From NCBI RefSeq assembly GCF_039634785.1, contig NZ_JBBIAB010000003.1:201724-265723 (forward strand): a stretch of DNA of 64,000 nucleotides, in the 5' to 3' direction. Origin of the DNA: Tistrella mobilis (GTDB lineage: Bacteria > Pseudomonadota > Alphaproteobacteria > Tistrellales > Tistrellaceae). The translations under genes were made by a program, and so were the position numbers. Of this stretch, positions 25,003 to 32,316 are shown one piece after another. Within the stretch, counting starts at the first letter, position 1. Every line of letters starts with the position of its first letter. Under the pieces are notes generated by a model. The model had not been told where the DNA came from. It was given only the letters and a program-made list of their open reading frames with translations, and ran no database searches.

Positions 25003-25986
25003 TCAACCCCACTTCACAATCTTCTGGTCGATCGCGCCGAAGATCGAGACCTCCTCGCGGTCGGTCATCTCGATGCGCACGCGGTCGCCGAAAGACATGA
25101 AGGGCGTGGCGGGCTTGCCGGCATCGATCGTCTCCAGCATGCGCCGCTCGGCGATGCAGCACGAACCGCGGCTGCGGTCGAGATTGGAGACGGTGCCCGA
25201 GCCCACGATGGTGCCGGCGCCCAGATGGCGGGTGCGCGCGGCATGGGCGACCAGGCGGCGGAAATCGAAGGTCATGTCCTCGCCCGCCTCTGGCGCGCCG
25301 AACAGCTCGTCGTTCAGCCAGACCTTGAGCGGCAGGTTGACCTTGCCGCCATCCCAGGCGTCGCCCAGCTCGTCCGGGGTGACCGCGACGGGGGAGAAGC
25401 TGGAGGCGGGCTTCGACTGGAAGAAGCCGAAGCCCTTGGCCAGCTCTCCGGGGATCAGATTGCGCAGGCTGACATCGTTGACCAGCATGACCAGACGGAT
25501 ATAGCCGCCCGCCTGCTCCGGCGCCGTGCCCATCGGCACGTCGTCGGTGACGACCGCGACCTCGGCCTCGAAATCGATGCCGAAGGCCTCATCGGCGCAT
25601 TCCACCGGATCCATCGGGCCGATGAAGCGGTCGGAGACGCCCTGATACATCAGCGGGTCATGCCAGAAGTTCTGGGGCATCTCGGCGCCGCGCGCCTTGC
25701 GGACCAGCTCGACATGGTTCACATAGGCCGAGCCGTCGGCCCATTGATAGGCGCGCGGCAGCGGCGCCATCGCCGCCACGGGATCGAAGCCGATCACGCC
25801 ATCGGCCTCGCCCGCATTCAGCGTCTCGGACAGGGCCTGAAGCCGGGGGGCGGTTTCGGCCCAGCGGTCCAGCGCCGCCTGCAGGGTGGGGGCGATGCCC
25901 TCCGCCGGCACGCAGTGCTTCAGGTCCCGCGAGACCACCACCAGCCGCCCGTCGCGGCTGCCGTCCTTGAGGGTCGCCAGCTTCAT
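25003..25986 (-). CDS. Fumarylacetoacetate hydrolase family protein
   Basis: This protein of 327 residues begins MKLATLKDGSRDG with GGAGTGACG before the ATG. The FAH fold is shown by the metal-binding E-x-E in GIDFEAEVAVVTDDVP and by GSGTVSN. As the third gene of an hpd-hmgA operon it most likely cleaves fumarylacetoacetate or maleylacetoacetate into fumarate and acetoacetate, the last step of tyrosine breakdown. No maleylacetoacetate isomerase is next to it. Two bases separate it from the hmgA stop codon. Confidence 0.9.
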   Translation of the reverse strand: MKLATLKDGSRDGRLVVVSRDLKHCVPAEGIAPTLQAALDRWAETAPRLQALSETLNAGEADGVIGFDPVAAMAPLPRAYQWADGSAYVNHVELVRKARGAEMPQNFWHDPLMYQGVSDRFIGPMDPVECADEAFGIDFEAEVAVVTDDVPMGTAPEQAGGYIRLVMLVNDVSLRNLIPGELAKGFGFFQSKPASSFSPVAVTPDELGDAWDGGKVNLPLKVWLNDELFGAPEAGEDMTFDFRRLVAHAARTRHLGAGTIVGSGTVSNLDRSRGSCCIAERRMLETIDAGKPATPFMSFGDRVRIEMTDREEVSIFGAIDQKIVKWG

Positions 25987-25988
25987 CG

Positions 25989-27140
25989 TCACTCCGCTGC
26001 TTCGTTGGTCGCGGCCGGCGGCGTGCGCCAGCTGTCGACGTAACCGGTCCATTCCACACGGGCGGCACCCGCCTGAACCTCCAGCGGGTCGCGGGTGTCG
26101 ATCATCACCGCCACCTCGTCGGTTTCCTTGCGCGCGGCCTTCTGGCCGATGGCAAAGGCCTTGGGGTGCGGCCCGTGGGCAAAGCCCGCCGGGTGCAGGC
26201 TGATCATGCCGGGATGGATGTTGTCCCGGCTGAAGAACGAGCCCCGGTGATAGAAGATGAACTCGTCATAGTCGACGTTCGAATGGAAGAACGGCACCTT
26301 GAGCGCACCGGGATCGCTCTCGATCGGCCGGGGCACGAAGGTGCAGACCACGAAGCGCTCGCCGACGAAGGTGGTGTGGGCCGAGGGCGGCAGATGGTAG
26401 CGATGGCTCATCAGCGGCCGGATGTCGCGCCAGTTCACCTTCACCGGCGCCAGATCGCCGTGCCAGCCCACCGCATCCAGCGGGTTGTACGGAAAGACCA
26501 TGGTCGAAACCTCGCCGAAGCGCTTCACCGCCACCCGGGTCTCGGTTTCGGAGCGCTGGTCGTCGAAGGCCTCGTCGATCACCGGCACCGCCAGGATCGC
26601 CGGATCGAAGATCGCATGCGGCCCCACGATGCCCTTGTCCGGCAGCTTGTAGGCGGAATCCGTCGCCTCGATCATCAGCACCCGGGTCGGCGCCTCGGGC
26701 ACCAGGCGCCACATCGTGCCGCGGGGCAGCAGGATGTAATCGCCTTCGGCATAGGTCATATGGCCGAAATCGCAGAACAGATGGCCGGCGCCGTCATGGA
26801 TGAACAGCAGCTCGTCGCCATCGGCATTGCGCGCCAGATGATCCATCGGCGCATCGATCCGCCAGAAGCGCACGGCGCAGCGGCGGTTGCCGACCAGCGC
26901 CTCGGCCGACCAGGGGCCGGCGGGCACCGCATCGAATTTCGTAGTGTCGAAGGCGCGCGGCCGGATCGGGCCTTCGAACCGCACCCAGCCGGTCGGGGCA
27001 TGGGCGTGGTGGATATGGGCGGCCGGGCCGAAGAAGCCCTCCCGCCCGATCTCGTGCTCGAACGTGCCGTCGGGCAGGTCCGCATGGGCCTGCCGCGACG
27101 CCCGGCCTTCGACGCGCGGGATGTTGATCCAGTTACGCAT
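25989..27140 (-). CDS. hmgA: Homogentisate 1,2-dioxygenase
   Basis: This 383-residue cupin-type iron dioxygenase opens the ring of homogentisate to maleylacetoacetate. Motifs seen include HIHHAHAPTGW near the N-terminus, FIHDGAGHLFCDFG, and the late iron-site region NVDYDEFIFYHRG followed by SLHPAGFAHGPHPKAF. The protein is shorter than the roughly 430-residue enzymes of Pseudomonas and human, matching the short bacterial form. Its start overlaps the hpd stop codon by eight bases, so the two are translationally coupled. Confidence 0.92.
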   Translation of the reverse strand: MRNWINIPRVEGRASRQAHADLPDGTFEHEIGREGFFGPAAHIHHAHAPTGWVRFEGPIRPRAFDTTKFDAVPAGPWSAEALVGNRRCAVRFWRIDAPMDHLARNADGDELLFIHDGAGHLFCDFGHMTYAEGDYILLPRGTMWRLVPEAPTRVLMIEATDSAYKLPDKGIVGPHAIFDPAILAVPVIDEAFDDQRSETETRVAVKRFGEVSTMVFPYNPLDAVGWHGDLAPVKVNWRDIRPLMSHRYHLPPSAHTTFVGERFVVCTFVPRPIESDPGALKVPFFHSNVDYDEFIFYHRGSFFSRDNIHPGMISLHPAGFAHGPHPKAFAIGQKAARKETDEVAVMIDTRDPLEVQAGAARVEWTGYVDSWRTPPAATNEAAE

Positions 27141-28233
27141 CGGCGCTCAACACTCCGCGCTTGATCTGGTCGAGTTCCATCGCCTCGAACAGCGCCTTGA
27201 AATTGCCTTCGCCGAAGCCCTCATTGCCCTTGCGCTGGATGATCTCGAAGAAGATCGGGCCGATGACGTTTTCGGTGAAGATCTGCAGCAGCATGCCGAC
27301 ATGATTGTCGGGCAGACCGTCGATCAGGATATGGTCGCGGCGCATCCGCTCCAGATCCTCGCCATGGTTCGGCACGCGGGTGTCGACCATGTCGTAATAG
27401 CTGGAAGGCGTTTCCAGGAAGGCGACGCCGCGATCGCGCATGCCCTCGACCGAGCGGAAGATCGCCTCGGTGCCGAGCGCGATATGCTGAATGCCCTCGC
27501 CGTTATAGGCCTGGAGGTATTCCTCGATCTGCGACTTGTCGTCGGCCGATTCGTTGATCGGGATCCGGATCTTGCCGCAGGGGCTGGTCATCGCGCGCGA
27601 ATGCAGGCCGGTCAGCTTGCCTTCGATGTCGAAATAGCGGATCTCGCGGAAATTGAACAGCTTGGTGTAGAATTCCGCCCAGTGATTCATCCGCCCGCGA
27701 TGGACGTTGTGGGTCAGATGGTCGATATAGGTGAGGCCCTGATCATTGGCGGCGGCCTCCGCCCCCTCGATCGGCTCGAAATCGATGTCGTAGATCGTGC
27801 CCCGGGCGCCGTAGCGGTCGACCAGATAGATCACGCTGCCGCCGATGCCCTGGATGGCCGGGATGTTCAGCTCCATCGGGCCCACCTGGCCCAGATGCGG
27901 CTTGGCGCCCAGTTCCAGTGCGCGCTTATAGGCGAAGCGCGCATCCCTGACCCGGAAGGCCATGGCGCAGGCGCCGGGGCCGTGCACCCGGGCGAAGGAC
28001 TGCGCGAAGCTCTCGGGCTCGGCATTGACGATGAAATTGATGTCGCCCTGGCGGTAGAGGGTGACGTCCTTGCTGCGGTGACGCGCGACGGCGGTAAAGC
28101 CCATCCGCTCGAACAGCGCCCCCATCTCCACCGGGTCGGGGCTGGCAAACTCGACGAACTCGAAGCCGTCGGTGCCCATCGGGTTCTCGAAACCGAACGG
28201 CGTATCGCCGCCAATCCTGCTTTCCGCGCTCAT
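27133..28233 (-). CDS. hpd: 4-Hydroxyphenylpyruvate dioxygenase
   Basis: This 366-residue VOC-fold iron enzyme converts 4-hydroxyphenylpyruvate to homogentisate. The iron ligands are visible in HLTHNVHRG (His), GIQHIALGTEAI (His) and FFEIIQRKGNEGFGEGNF (Glu), and the C-terminal helix motif FGEGNFKALFEAME is typical. The start MSAESRIGG follows a strong GAGGGGGAAAG. It is the first gene of the operon hpd-hmgA-FAH. A MarR-type regulator is divergent at 190 bp and probably controls it. Confidence 0.95.
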   Translation of the reverse strand: MSAESRIGGDTPFGFENPMGTDGFEFVEFASPDPVEMGALFERMGFTAVARHRSKDVTLYRQGDINFIVNAEPESFAQSFARVHGPGACAMAFRVRDARFAYKRALELGAKPHLGQVGPMELNIPAIQGIGGSVIYLVDRYGARGTIYDIDFEPIEGAEAAANDQGLTYIDHLTHNVHRGRMNHWAEFYTKLFNFREIRYFDIEGKLTGLHSRAMTSPCGKIRIPINESADDKSQIEEYLQAYNGEGIQHIALGTEAIFRSVEGMRDRGVAFLETPSSYYDMVDTRVPNHGEDLERMRRDHILIDGLPDNHVGMLLQIFTENVIGPIFFEIIQRKGNEGFGEGNFKALFEAMELDQIKRGVLSADA

Positions 28234-28362
28234 CGCTTTCCCCCTCGACGTGCCACGGCTACCATCCTGCCCCCGGGACGGCACGCGGACGACGCCCCGC
28301 AGGACTGCGAGGGTCGGGAGACCGGGCCTTCCGGGGCTCGACGTCGCCGTCGGCACCTGATA

Positions 28363-28376
28363 GTTTCATTTGTAAC
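28363..28376. promoter_or_regulatory. Candidate MarR operator between hpd and marR
   Basis: GTTTCATTTGTAAC forms an imperfect dyad (GTTTC/GTAAC, four of five bases paired) in the only AT-rich patch of the divergent spacer. The position suits a regulator acting on both promoters. The call rests on symmetry and position only. Confidence 0.3.
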
Positions 28377-28423
28377 CAAGTTGCCCCCGGACCCGGGCAA
28401 TGTCAAGCGGAGGCCATCATCCG

Positions 28424-28993
28424 GTGAGCGAAAGCGCCAGCCCTGCCCCCGGTTCCAATCCTGCCCCCGGTTCCAATCCCGCCCCCGCCCCCAGTGCCGA
28501 GCCGGGTTCCGGTTCCGGCGGCCGGCCGAACCCGGCACGCGGCGAGGACGGCAAGAGCCTGAGGCTGGAGCGTTTCCTGCCCTACCGGCTGTCGATCCTG
28601 GCCAACCGGATCTCCTCCACCCTGGCCCGCGCCTATGCCGAGACGTTCGACCTGACCATTCCCGAATGGCGGGTGATGGCGGTGCTGGGCCGGTTTGCCC
28701 CCCTTACCGCCAATGCGATCTGCGAGGCGACGCAGATGGACAAGGTGACGGTCAGCCGCGCCGTGCAGCGGCTGGAGCGCGCCCGGCGGATCGAGCGCAC
28801 CACCGACGCGGCCGATCGCCGCCGGGTGCTGCTGCGGCTGTCGGCCGACGGGCTGGATGTCTATGGCCGGATCGCGCCGCTGGCGCTGGATTACGAAGAA
28901 CGGCTGATCGCCGAACTGACGCCCGAGGAACGCGACGCCCTGGTCCTGCTGATCGATCGCCTGACCGACATGGCCGCCCGCACCGAGATCTGA
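28424..28993 (+). CDS. MarR-family transcriptional regulator
   Basis: This protein of 189 residues has a winged HTH: RLSILANRISSTLARAY, EWRVMAVLG, the recognition helix around MDKVTVSRAVQRLE, and the wing DAADRRRVLLRL. GTG at 28424 is preferred because GGAGG precedes it; ATG 28400 is possible but has a poor site. The first 40 residues are a Pro/Ala/Gly/Ser-rich tail with a tandem repeat that is not part of the fold. Being divergent from hpd, it probably represses the homogentisate operon until an aromatic ligand binds. Confidence 0.88.
   Translation: MSESASPAPGSNPAPGSNPAPAPSAEPGSGSGGRPNPARGEDGKSLRLERFLPYRLSILANRISSTLARAYAETFDLTIPEWRVMAVLGRFAPLTANAICEATQMDKVTVSRAVQRLERARRIERTTDAADRRRVLLRLSADGLDVYGRIAPLALDYEERLIAELTPEERDALVLLIDRLTDMAARTEI
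28442..28477. repeat. 18-bp tandem repeat in the MarR N-terminal tail
   Basis: Two identical 18-bp units encode PAPGSN twice, followed by a degenerate third unit (PAPAPS). The repeat extends the disordered N-terminus of the regulator in frame. Confidence 0.85.
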
Positions 28994-29423
28994 CCGGATT
29001 CATCAACCATAAGTGGATGAAATGGACAAGACTGCCAGGCGGCGGTGCCCTGCGCCGGCAGATGGGTGTGGCAGAATGTGACGCGGCGCAGCACATTTAT
29101 CGGCTTTGTGTCGTTTTCGATCGATATTTTATGCAGATGACTTCTGTGAAAACTGGCGGAATACAGCCGAATTCTATGCCGTGACAGCCTTCCAGCCCGT
29201 GGGTCCACGATGTGTGCACCGCACGATATATCCTCTTGTTGCGCTGCCGCATCCTGCTCTACAGTTAAAGCAGGGTGACATACAGGCGTGACACTTCGGC
29301 ATCGCAGGATCGGTGCAGCCCCCGGGTGGATCGCCTTCAGCGCGTGACATACACAAGCAATACGCGGCAAACCGCGACCGGAAACGCCTGCTGCGACCGG
29401 AAAAAGTGATAGGGGGTTTGGTG
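28994..29423 (+). promoter_or_regulatory. AT-rich 430-bp spacer upstream of the Cache chemoreceptor
   Basis: No gene is supported here. It opens with an inverted repeat TTCATC...GATGAA (28999-29021) around AACCATAAGT, which could end the marR transcript or be an operator. A candidate promoter is TTGTTG (29236-29241), 18 bp, TACAGT (29260-29265). GTGACATACA occurs twice as a direct repeat at 29275 and 29344. The lower GC content sets this spacer apart from most of the window. Confidence 0.4.
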
Positions 29424-30491
29424 ATGACCAGTCAGATGCCACTTGCCGTGCGTGCCGCGGCCGATACCGTCGCCGCCGAAGCCGTTTCGGCGCAGAAGGT
29501 CCGCGGCCTGATGCAGGGGCTGAGCGACGACGTCCGGCGTTTTTCCAGCGGCAACCAGGAAATCGCAGCCCGCACCCGTCTTCTGGCCCTGAACGCGGCG
29601 ATCGAGGCCGCCCGCGCCGGCAATGCCGGTCGCGGCTTTTCGGTGGTCGCGGGCGAGGTCAAAAGCCTGGCCGAACAGGCCGACGGCGCCGCGAAACGCT
29701 TTCAGGAAGAGATCATCGGCCGCATCGCCGAATGCGAGGCGGTGACCCAGCGGCTGGTGGGCCAGCGCGGCCAGGAACTGGCCCATGGACTGGTCCAGCT
29801 GATCGTGCGCAATCTGTATGAACGCACCTGCGACGTGCGCTGGTGGGCGACCGACACCGCCTTCTGGGAGGCGCTGGAACAGCCATCGCGTGAGGCGCTG
29901 GAACACGCCGCCATGCGGCTGTCGGTCATCCACCGCTACTACACCGTCTATACCAATCTGGTGCTGACCGACGCCTCGGGCCGGGTGGTCGCCATGGCCG
30001 ACGACCGCTTCCAGCGCATGCGCGGTGCCGATCTCTCCCGCGAGGCCTGGGTTCGTGACGCGCTCGCCACCCGCAGCGGCGACGAATACATCGTCGACGA
30101 TGTCCGCGCCGATGCCATGCACGACAACCGCTCGGTGCTGGTCTATGCAACCGCGGTGCGCGAAGGCGGACGCACCGACGGCCGGATCATCGGCACGCTC
30201 GGCATCTATTTCGACTGGGAACGCCAGGGCCGCTCGATCGTGGTCGACGAACCCTCGCTTTCGGCCGACGAATGGACCCGCTCGCGGGTGCTGCTGCTGG
30301 ATCGCGCCCGGCGCGTGATCGCCGCGTCCGACGGCCAGGGGCTTTACCAGACCTTCCACCTGTCGACCGACGGCGCCAAACAGGGCACCTACATGACCGG
30401 CGACACCGTGATCGGCTTTTCCGAAACCATCGGCTATCAGGAATATGACGGTCTGGGCTGGATGGGTGTGGTCGTCCAGCGCATGAGGTAA
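29424..30491 (+). CDS. Soluble chemoreceptor-like protein with N-terminal signalling helix and C-terminal Cache-like sensor
   Basis: The 355-residue protein starts MTSQMPLAV after AGGGGG. The conserved chemoreceptor tip [20 protein letters not shown] lies near the N-terminus (about residues 50-70). The rest looks like a Cache-type sensory domain: [35 protein letters not shown], then a second lobe with [18 protein letters not shown]. No membrane segment is visible. The usual order is sensor then signalling domain, so this is an inverted and shortened layout. It may bind a cytosolic ligand and engage CheA/CheW, or act as a stand-alone modulator. Confidence 0.82.
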
Positions 30492-30594: not shown

Positions 30595-32316
30595 ATGACC
30601 AGCCCCAGCCTTCCCCTGCCCCAGGGCCGCCCGCAAAGCCGGCGCAACCGTCTGGTGCGCCGCCTGCGCGCGATAACCGGCGCCATCATGCTGGTCTTCG
30701 TCACCGGCCATCTGATCGCCCATGCCAGCGGGCTGTTCGGCATCGGCGTTGCCCAGAAGGTGCTGGACGTCACCATGGCGCCCTGGACGGTGCCGCCGGG
30801 CAGCCTGCTGCTGCCGGCGGCCTTCCTGCTTCACGCAAGTCTGGGCCTGCGCGCGCTCTATCTGCGCCGCAGCCTGCGCATGCCGCCCACCGAGGCGCTG
30901 CAGCTGGCGCTGGGCCTGCTGCTGCCGATGCTGCTGGCGGCCCATATCACCGGGGTCGATGCCGCACTCAGCGTCGATGCGGGGGTCGACAGCTATACCC
31001 GGATCATGGCCCTGCTCTGGACACCCACCGGGGCGCTGCGCCAGTTCGTGCTGCTGGGGGTGGTCTGGCTGCACGGCATGATCGGTCTCGGCTTCTGGCT
31101 GAAGGGGCGCGGGGCCGGGGCGGGCTGGATCGCCGCCTGGCGGATCGGCGCCTGGGCGCTGCCGCTCGCCGCCCTGCTGGGCTTCCTGGATGCCGGCCGC
31201 AGCGTGGCCGGGCTGATGAAGCTGGGGCTGCTGTCGCCGACGCTGTCTGCCCTGCCCGCCGATCTCCATGCCCGGGCCCAGGCAAACGAGTTTGCGATGA
31301 TTGCGAATTGGACCTTCGCAATCTTCGCAACCTTCGCCGCCCGCGGCCTGCGCCACCTGATCTCGCTGCGTCATGGCCGGGTCGTGGTGACCTATCCGGG
31401 CGGACGCACGGTGCGGATGCTGCCGGGCGGTTCGGTGCTGGAGGCAAGCCGGCTGGGCAATGTGCCCCATGTCGCGGTCTGCGGCGGCCGCGGCCGCTGT
31501 TCCACCTGCCGGGTGGAAATCGTGCGCGGGCTGGAAAACCTGCCGCCGGCCGATGCCGAAGAATCGGCCCTGCTGTCGCGCATCCGCGCGCCCGCGGGCG
31601 TGCGGCTGGCCTGCCGGCTGCATCCGACCGGGCCGGTGACGGTGCATCCGCTGCTGAAGGCCCAGGGCCGCGGCCGGCGGCCGTCGGAGGATCCGATGGT
31701 GCATGGCGGGCGCGAAAAGCGGGTCGCGATCCTGTTCACCGACATCCGCGGCTCTACCGCCATCGCCGAACAGCGCCCGCCCTATGACATCATGTTCCTG
31801 CTGGAACGCTATTTCGAAACCATCGGCGGCGCGGTCGAAGCGGCCGGCGGCACGCCCAACGCCTTTGTCGGCGACGAGGTGATGGCGATCTTCGGTGCCG
31901 ATGGCGGCGATGGCCCTGAAGATTTCGCCGCGGCGGCGACCCAGGCCCTGCATGCGGCAGGCGAGATCGCCCGCCGGCTGGAGGTGCTGAACCGCAGCCT
32001 GGTGCGCGATCTGGGCCAGCCGCTCAGGATCGGCATCGGCATCCATGGCGGGCCGGCGGTTGTCGGCCGGCTGGGTTATGGCGAAACCCGGATGCTGACC
32101 GCGGTGGGCGATACCGTCCATGTCGCCCGGCGGCTGGAAGAGCTGACCAAGGCCCATGCCTGCCTGCTGGTGGTGTCTGACGACATCCTGCAGGCGGCGG
32201 GACGGGCGCCGGCGACGCTGGATGCCAGCTGCCACGAGATCACCGTCCGCGGCCGGGTGGAGCCGCTGGCGGTGCATGCGGTGCCGGCCGTGGCGGTGGA
32301 CCGGCTGGGGGGCTGA
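30595..32316 (+). CDS. Membrane class III nucleotidyl cyclase with histidine-rich anchor and 2Fe-2S domain
   Basis: The 573-residue protein has three parts. About residues 15-245 form a multi-helix anchor with paired histidines (VTGHLIAHASG, FLLHASLG, LLAAHITG, WLHGMIG), resembling diheme-b anchors related to succinate dehydrogenase. A ferredoxin domain follows with Cys296, Cys302, Cys305 and Cys340. The class III catalytic domain has metal aspartates in FTDIRGST and VGDEVMAIFG. CyaC of Sinorhizobium has a quinone-responsive anchor of this kind. The usual VNVAARLE asparagine region reads VHVARRLE here. Redox-controlled cAMP synthesis is the likely role. Confidence 0.85.
   Translation: MTSPSLPLPQGRPQSRRNRLVRRLRAITGAIMLVFVTGHLIAHASGLFGIGVAQKVLDVTMAPWTVPPGSLLLPAAFLLHASLGLRALYLRRSLRMPPTEALQLALGLLLPMLLAAHITGVDAALSVDAGVDSYTRIMALLWTPTGALRQFVLLGVVWLHGMIGLGFWLKGRGAGAGWIAAWRIGAWALPLAALLGFLDAGRSVAGLMKLGLLSPTLSALPADLHARAQANEFAMIANWTFAIFATFAARGLRHLISLRHGRVVVTYPGGRTVRMLPGGSVLEASRLGNVPHVAVCGGRGRCSTCRVEIVRGLENLPPADAEESALLSRIRAPAGVRLACRLHPTGPVTVHPLLKAQGRGRRPSEDPMVHGGREKRVAILFTDIRGSTAIAEQRPPYDIMFLLERYFETIGGAVEAAGGTPNAFVGDEVMAIFGADGGDGPEDFAAAATQALHAAGEIARRLEVLNRSLVRDLGQPLRIGIGIHGGPAVVGRLGYGETRMLTAVGDTVHVARRLEELTKAHACLLVVSDDILQAAGRAPATLDASCHEITVRGRVEPLAVHAVPAVAVDRLGG

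Follow-up and report, generated by a model that had tools for sequence, protein, structure and literature searches.

A CyaC-type cyclase gene and its surroundings

The window, a 64,000-nucleotide stretch of Tistrella mobilis DNA, contains an ATG-initiated gene for a CyaC-type cyclase of 573 amino acids at positions 30595–32316 on the plus strand, to which all residues and domains of the protein given below also map. Open reading frame, Pfam matches and alignment agree on the three parts that the original prediction had read from the sequence: a membrane anchor (residues 15–260; 30637–31374), a 2Fe-2S ferredoxin domain (residues 270–344; 31402–31626) and a class III nucleotide cyclase domain (residues 368–570; 31696–32304). 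The ferredoxin domain is recognised by the Pfam model Fer2 (PF00111) over residues 270–344, scoring 29 bits against a cut-off of 21, as well as by matches to ferredoxins in the PDB and by the conservation of its cysteines. The cyclase domain is recognised by Guanylate_cyc (PF00211) over residues 373–534, with 46.9 bits against a cut-off of 21.9, and by a structural match to the PDB entry 1wc1_A, while the anchor found no Pfam match at E-values up to 1. The nearest named record for the gene is the plasmid pTM3 of Tistrella mobilis KA081020-065, which is 97% identical.

A gene on the same strand (29313–30491) ends about 100 bases upstream of the cyclase; its product combines an MCP signalling hairpin (Pfam MCPsignal, 75.1 bits) with a cache-like stretch at the C-terminus, where dCache_1 scored under its cut-off. 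This MCP-like gene adjoins the cyclase in all three Tistrella genomes, and it is possible that the two share a transcript; no such gene was found beside any family locus outside Tistrella among 34 loci searched, mostly with 1.5 kb or less of flanking sequence. Farther upstream, the stretch 25003–28993 contains minus-strand genes that likely encode tyrosine/homogentisate breakdown enzymes, as named by eye, and, at 28400–28993 on the plus strand, a MarR-type regulator gene recognised by Pfam. In Pycsar systems, the effector gene lies next to the cyclase gene. Models of the Pycsar cyclase PycC matched the class III domain with a best E-value of 2e-16, and matched the second Tistrella copy described below as well; these models carry no score cut-off and are uninformative here. 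A Pycsar effector gene was not found among the immediate neighbours of the cyclase: the MCP-like gene precedes it, and a glutathione synthetase gene on the opposite strand follows.

A structure model predicts six long helices in the anchor (residues 15–47, 69–94, 98–125, 144–171, 175–209 and 222–259) at low to moderate confidence, with block means of about 40–76 pLDDT in the full model and a mean of 49.5 for the anchor folded alone. Model and alignment together place one conserved histidine on each of helices 1–4, and these four residues are the predicted heme ligands: His39 (30709–30711) on helix 1, His80 (30832–30834) on helix 2, His117 (30943–30945) on helix 3 and His160 (31072–31074) on helix 4. 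Each is a histidine in 111 of the 112 homologue rows that our alignment holds besides the window's own, the sole exception being one row (L202) that lacks the anchor region altogether. A fifth histidine of the anchor, His43, is less conserved (104 of 112 rows). The anchor histidines that had been pointed out from the sequence are present, as are the four cysteines assigned to the cluster, Cys296, Cys302, Cys305 and Cys340, each of which is found in all 112 homologue rows; conservation of this degree is not due to chance.

Searching the PDB with a profile of 58 anchors returned one match at E-values up to 1, a weak one (E 0.062) to the C subunit of succinate dehydrogenase, in which two of the anchor histidine columns fall on histidines. 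The Pfam family Sdh_cyt matched one of the same 58 anchors when they were scanned singly, the window's anchor not being that one. Structure-search matches listed for the full model are cyclases and cover model residues 360–570, so that they carry no information on the anchor. Most of the ferredoxin part lies below 50 pLDDT in the model, probably because the underlying alignment held just one other full-length row. Outside its histidines, the anchor is not especially conserved, with 31 of 243 columns reaching 85% or more compared with 75 of the 213 catalytic columns, so that any contrast between sensor and pocket in this family is one of key residues and not of whole domains.

An altered nucleotide pocket in Tistrella

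The model of the catalytic domain is confident, with most block means above 90 pLDDT, and superposes on 1wc1_A with a Z-score of 26.2 and an rmsd of 1.7 over 190 aligned residues. Alignment shows that the domain retains both metal-binding aspartates, Asp383 (31741–31743) and Asp427 (31873–31875), together with Thr502 and the transition-state arginine, Arg513 (32131–32133). Other pocket positions have changed. Ala423 (31861–31863) stands in place of the substrate-specifying lysine, which specifies adenine in canonical class III adenylate cyclases and is present in 91 of the 112 homologue rows, with a gap in two. Ser387 (31753–31755) replaces a phenylalanine, giving RGST for RGFT; Asp422 has become Asn; His509 (32119–32121) occupies the column of the transition-state asparagine, leaving the canonical transition-state pair half kept; and Arg512 (32128–32130) replaces a serine at the position just before the catalytic arginine. 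Judged by these pocket residues, the protein is not a canonical adenylate cyclase.

The histidine had been picked out by the original prediction in the motif VHVARRLE, which we locate at residues 508–515. The motif is the same in all three Tistrella genomes and is thus not an error of one assembly; sequencing error was rejected as its source on these grounds. The alignment led us to reject the histidine as a clade feature of CyaC-type cyclases: the residue-509 column holds Asn in 106 homologue rows, His in three, Ser in one and a gap in two, and the three histidines belong to the two other Tistrella rows and to one outside the genus (L180, with Gln, Thr, His and Arg, or Q-T-H-R, in the Lys, Thr, Asn and Arg columns). 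The notion of an altered pocket stands with respect to the asparagine, but the replacement of Lys by Ala at 423, which is the more telling change, had been missed.

Read across the same four columns, 91 of the 111 rows that contain the pocket region, the window's own included, are K-T-N-R; A-T-H-R is confined to the three Tistrella orthologues, and the remaining 17 rows show other combinations. Lysine and asparagine are both gone in Tistrella, in L180 and in the very divergent row L199 (S-T-S-R), and in no other row. In a separate set of 96 class III domains, histidine appears at the asparagine column in the window gene only, with a gap in one row. This set is not a random sample: the window gene, the second copy and repeated entries from Tistrella genomes are among its members, and 79 of its loci were found with peptide patterns derived from the window protein, one such pattern lying next to the lysine column.

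The window protein departs from its relatives elsewhere, too. Where columns are conserved to at least 85% in the 91 K-T-N-R rows, it carries another residue at 17 of 75 catalytic columns, 6 of 31 anchor columns and 5 of 36 ferredoxin columns, against medians of 2, 1 and 1, respectively, in those rows themselves. The catalytic differences include F387S, N404E, D422N, K423A, G428E, N509H and S512R. Since change is above the usual level in all three domains and the branch is long, some of the catalytic differences may just reflect fast evolution: on this residue-level evidence the whole protein is fast-evolving, but its pocket is plainly altered.

Comparison of the three Tistrella genomes in pairs gave dN/dS values of 0.037, 0.067 and 0.099 for the catalytic part. 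In the same pairs the anchor had 0.25, 0.14 and 0.22, and the ferredoxin part had 0.21, 0.18 and 0.09, which makes the catalytic part the most constrained of the three domains in two of the three pairs. The changed pocket residues are identical in all three genomes. Together, constraint and identity argue against decay of the domain, though not for catalysis, because purifying selection fits an active enzyme and a binding-only domain alike and does not separate the two. The altered pocket may have been kept for a function.

Non-canonical relatives and a second Tistrella copy

Of 385 sampled genomes of the class, 110 contain family matches at an E-value of 1e-40. With the best three candidates per genome scored, there were 119 matches; 113 loci cover 114 of these, and five partial ones were left out. 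The usual lysine and asparagine are present in named relatives from Sinorhizobium sp. RAC02 and Rhizobium etli CFN 42. Twenty of the 111 rows with a pocket region lack the lysine, and serine replaces Phe387 in 16 of those 20, compared with none of the 91 K-T-N-R rows (89 Phe, 2 Tyr). Loss of the lysine requires at least five changes on the full-length tree, and at least six on a tree built from the anchor and ferredoxin parts of 65 chosen rows (the sensor-only tree), where Ser387 requires five and His509 two. Tests of whether Lys423 changes together with Phe387 or Ser512 gave no significant result, the independent pairs on supported branches being too few: two in the full-length tree and four in the sensor-only tree.

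Non-canonical copies are found in seven of eight genomes with two family matches and in 9 of 95 with one (Fisher p 4e-6, genomes treated as independent). This comparison covers the 103 genomes with examined rows, again from the best three candidates per genome; it counts Tistrella three times, and G067, the eighth of the two-match genomes, owes its second match to L202, the row without an anchor. As the three Tistrella genomes represent one lineage, the association with copy number is overstated.

Several further loci of the family are worth recording. One (L214:2420–3580, plus strand, genome G061) encodes 386 amino acids comprising the anchor and ferredoxin part without a cyclase domain, and its end overlaps with the beginning of a mechanosensitive-channel-like gene; it may be a redox sensor serving another output. 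Another (L200, genome G347) carries a CyaC-like frame broken between the ferredoxin and cyclase parts, either a broken gene or a sequencing error. At four loci (L025, L028, L035 and L045), the cyclase is immediately preceded, 0–25 bases away and in the same orientation, by a gene that by eye resembles a PfkB-type sugar/adenosine kinase.

Tistrella itself carries a second full-length CyaC copy (G000:C41:1213–2922), which is 41% identical to the window gene. The two share the three-domain architecture, the heme histidines and the cluster cysteines; the second copy differs in its pocket, which reads G-Q-N-R, and in having a divergently oriented neighbour, a CRP-family regulator gene with cNMP_binding and HTH_Crp_2 domains (L013:345–1247, minus strand, on G000:C41). 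The predicted starts of the regulator gene and the second copy overlap, and a CRP-type neighbour suggests that this copy is tied to cyclic-nucleotide signalling. Its catalytic part is also constrained (dN/dS 0.036, 0.080 and 0.069). Both copies are present in all three Tistrella genomes, on different contigs in each. In the full-length tree, the two copies fall together with L192 within one set of seven rows; in the sensor-only tree they are not grouped, and the window copy lies beside the long row L199. Both trees carry long-branch warnings.

Possible outputs and comparison with known systems

We consider it likely, on the residues described above, that the window gene encodes a membrane-bound redox sensor of the CyaC family with a pocket altered in a manner specific to Tistrella. 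The literature searched yielded no paper naming both 'Tistrella' and 'adenylate cyclase'. Wissig et al. 2019 is reportedly the primary paper on CyaC. The CyaC protein of Sinorhizobium meliloti (SMc01818) is described as having a class III cyclase domain, a [2Fe-2S] cluster and a hexahelical anchor that carries two heme b; ubiquinone can oxidise or reduce these hemes, and this affects the activity of the cyclase (PMC10463352). By analogy, the Tistrella anchor, with residues proposed to hold two heme b, would pass electrons to and from ubiquinone, and the hemes would signal their redox state, perhaps via the one [2Fe-2S] cluster expected in the ferredoxin part, to the cyclase dimer. The catalytic part would then receive this signal with a class III fold that, from its sequence, keeps the metal aspartate pair and the catalytic arginine around a pocket changed at Ala423, Ser387, Asn422, His509 and Arg512. 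The passage of electrons from quinone through heme, as originally proposed, finds its support in homology with S. meliloti CyaC (PMC10463352) and is carried over from there to the Tistrella protein.

What such a signal would control depends on the state of the pocket, and here we are evenly divided on whether the domain is an active cyclase whose nucleotide preference has been lowered or altered. A changed yet working pocket is plausible by analogy with Ma1120 of Mycobacterium avium, which is active with alanine in place of the transition-state asparagine and in which changing this residue to Asn lowered activity, and with Cya2, in which a tyrosine before the catalytic arginine is said to enhance guanylyl cyclase activity (PMC4215837). 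An inactive pocket is also plausible by analogy with CyaC, for which a form with both Lys410 and Thr484 replaced by alanine has been used as the inactive protein on account of its very low background activity (PMC10463352); in seven of our homologues, with starts chosen by script, Lys and Thr fall at exactly 410 and 484. This near-inactivity speaks against a normal cAMP output of the Tistrella protein. It also favours a nearly inactive domain that has become a redox-dependent dimerisation or binding module, perhaps acting with the second CyaC copy, as do the loss of both Lys423 and Asn509, the presence of another full-length copy in the genome and the concentration of non-canonical copies in two-match genomes. 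Against it, the metal aspartates and Arg513 are kept, the catalytic domain is strongly constrained, and the copy-number association, which is drawn from three candidates per genome and includes the anchorless L202, is inflated by the single Tistrella lineage; we therefore regard this as a tentative alternative, somewhat on the doubtful side.

That the changes are simply tolerated, with cAMP made under redox control as in S. meliloti CyaC, appears unlikely to us. Thr502, Arg513 and the metal aspartates are in place, the activity of Ma1120 with Ala for Asn (PMC4215837) is a favourable precedent, and the repeated origin of Lys-less pockets, on either tree, indicates that the family tolerates loss of this residue; yet most homologue rows retain the lysine, and its joint loss with the asparagine is confined to Tistrella, L180 and L199. 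Similarly improbable is a pocket rebuilt, through Ala423, Ser387, His509 and Arg512, for a redox-gated cyclic nucleotide other than cAMP. Were this so, a second messenger with no established link to this sensor so far would report the state of the quinone pool, and the second copy beside its CRP-type gene would represent a different branch of the same split. In mammalian adenylyl cyclase, two halves form a mixed enzyme, and the A-T-H-R and G-Q-N-R copies of Tistrella could be imagined to do likewise: both occur in all three genomes, the second copy supplies the asparagine missing from the window copy, and another genome (G128) also holds two non-canonical copies (N-T-N-R and S-Q-N-R). However, neither Tistrella copy has the lysine, so a mixed dimer would not restore a standard site, and in every genome the two copies sit on separate contigs, leaving this the least probable of the readings considered.

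For the preferred assignment, a CyaC-family sensor with a changed pocket, the wider interest lies in the contrast between input and output. The proposed cofactor ligands are invariant wherever their region is present, while the output pocket has lost its lysine at least five or six times, depending on the tree. The family therefore lends itself to the question of which features of the substrate pocket a cyclase requires, and to that of whether redox signals in some Alphaproteobacteria are sent by something other than cAMP. A Tistrella domain that proved inactive would amount to a naturally occurring pseudo-cyclase attached to a redox sensor.

The likeness to CyaC of Sinorhizobium drawn in the original prediction holds, as that protein is described with the same three parts (PMC10463352). 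Of that protein the prediction had mentioned the diheme anchor; the 2Fe-2S domain should not be read as an addition to it, since CyaC has the cluster itself (PMC10463352, Fig. 6 legend). Compared by description, S. meliloti CyaC shares the anchor, cluster and cyclase architecture of the window protein and differs at the ATP site, with Lys410 and Thr484 against Ala423 and Thr502, plus His509 for Asn, in Tistrella, and in its upstream gene, the TetR-type cycR in place of the MCP-like gene (PMC10463352). A 2016 eLife paper likewise describes, as its cluster 1, 30 class IIIb cyclases with six transmembrane helices and a ferredoxin, in which four histidines are predicted to bind two hemes, Q132R4 of Rhodopseudomonas palustris being an example (PMC4821796). 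These resemble the window protein in their four spaced anchor histidines and in the ferredoxin between membrane and catalytic domain; they are described there as adenylate cyclases, whereas the window protein is without two of the usual pocket residues. A new domain combination was accordingly rejected (PMC10463352, PMC4821796): with CyaC, the 2016 cluster and the matches of our survey, the architecture is both known and common. At the level of the pocket, Ma1120 is like the window protein a class III cyclase without the transition-state asparagine and unlike it in keeping the pocket Lys and Asp; the portion of the source drawn on here describes no anchor or ferredoxin domain for it (PMC4215837). 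By sequence, the catalytic domain matches the guanylyl cyclase Cya2 (2w01) best among PDB entries (E 3.7e-17). Cya2 has a glutamate at the position of Ala423, where the PDB entry 6fht has lysine; it retains the asparagine and carries its tyrosine at the position of Arg512. Set beside these systems, and on the residues compared, what is new in Tistrella is a genus-level variant of the pocket within an architecture already known.
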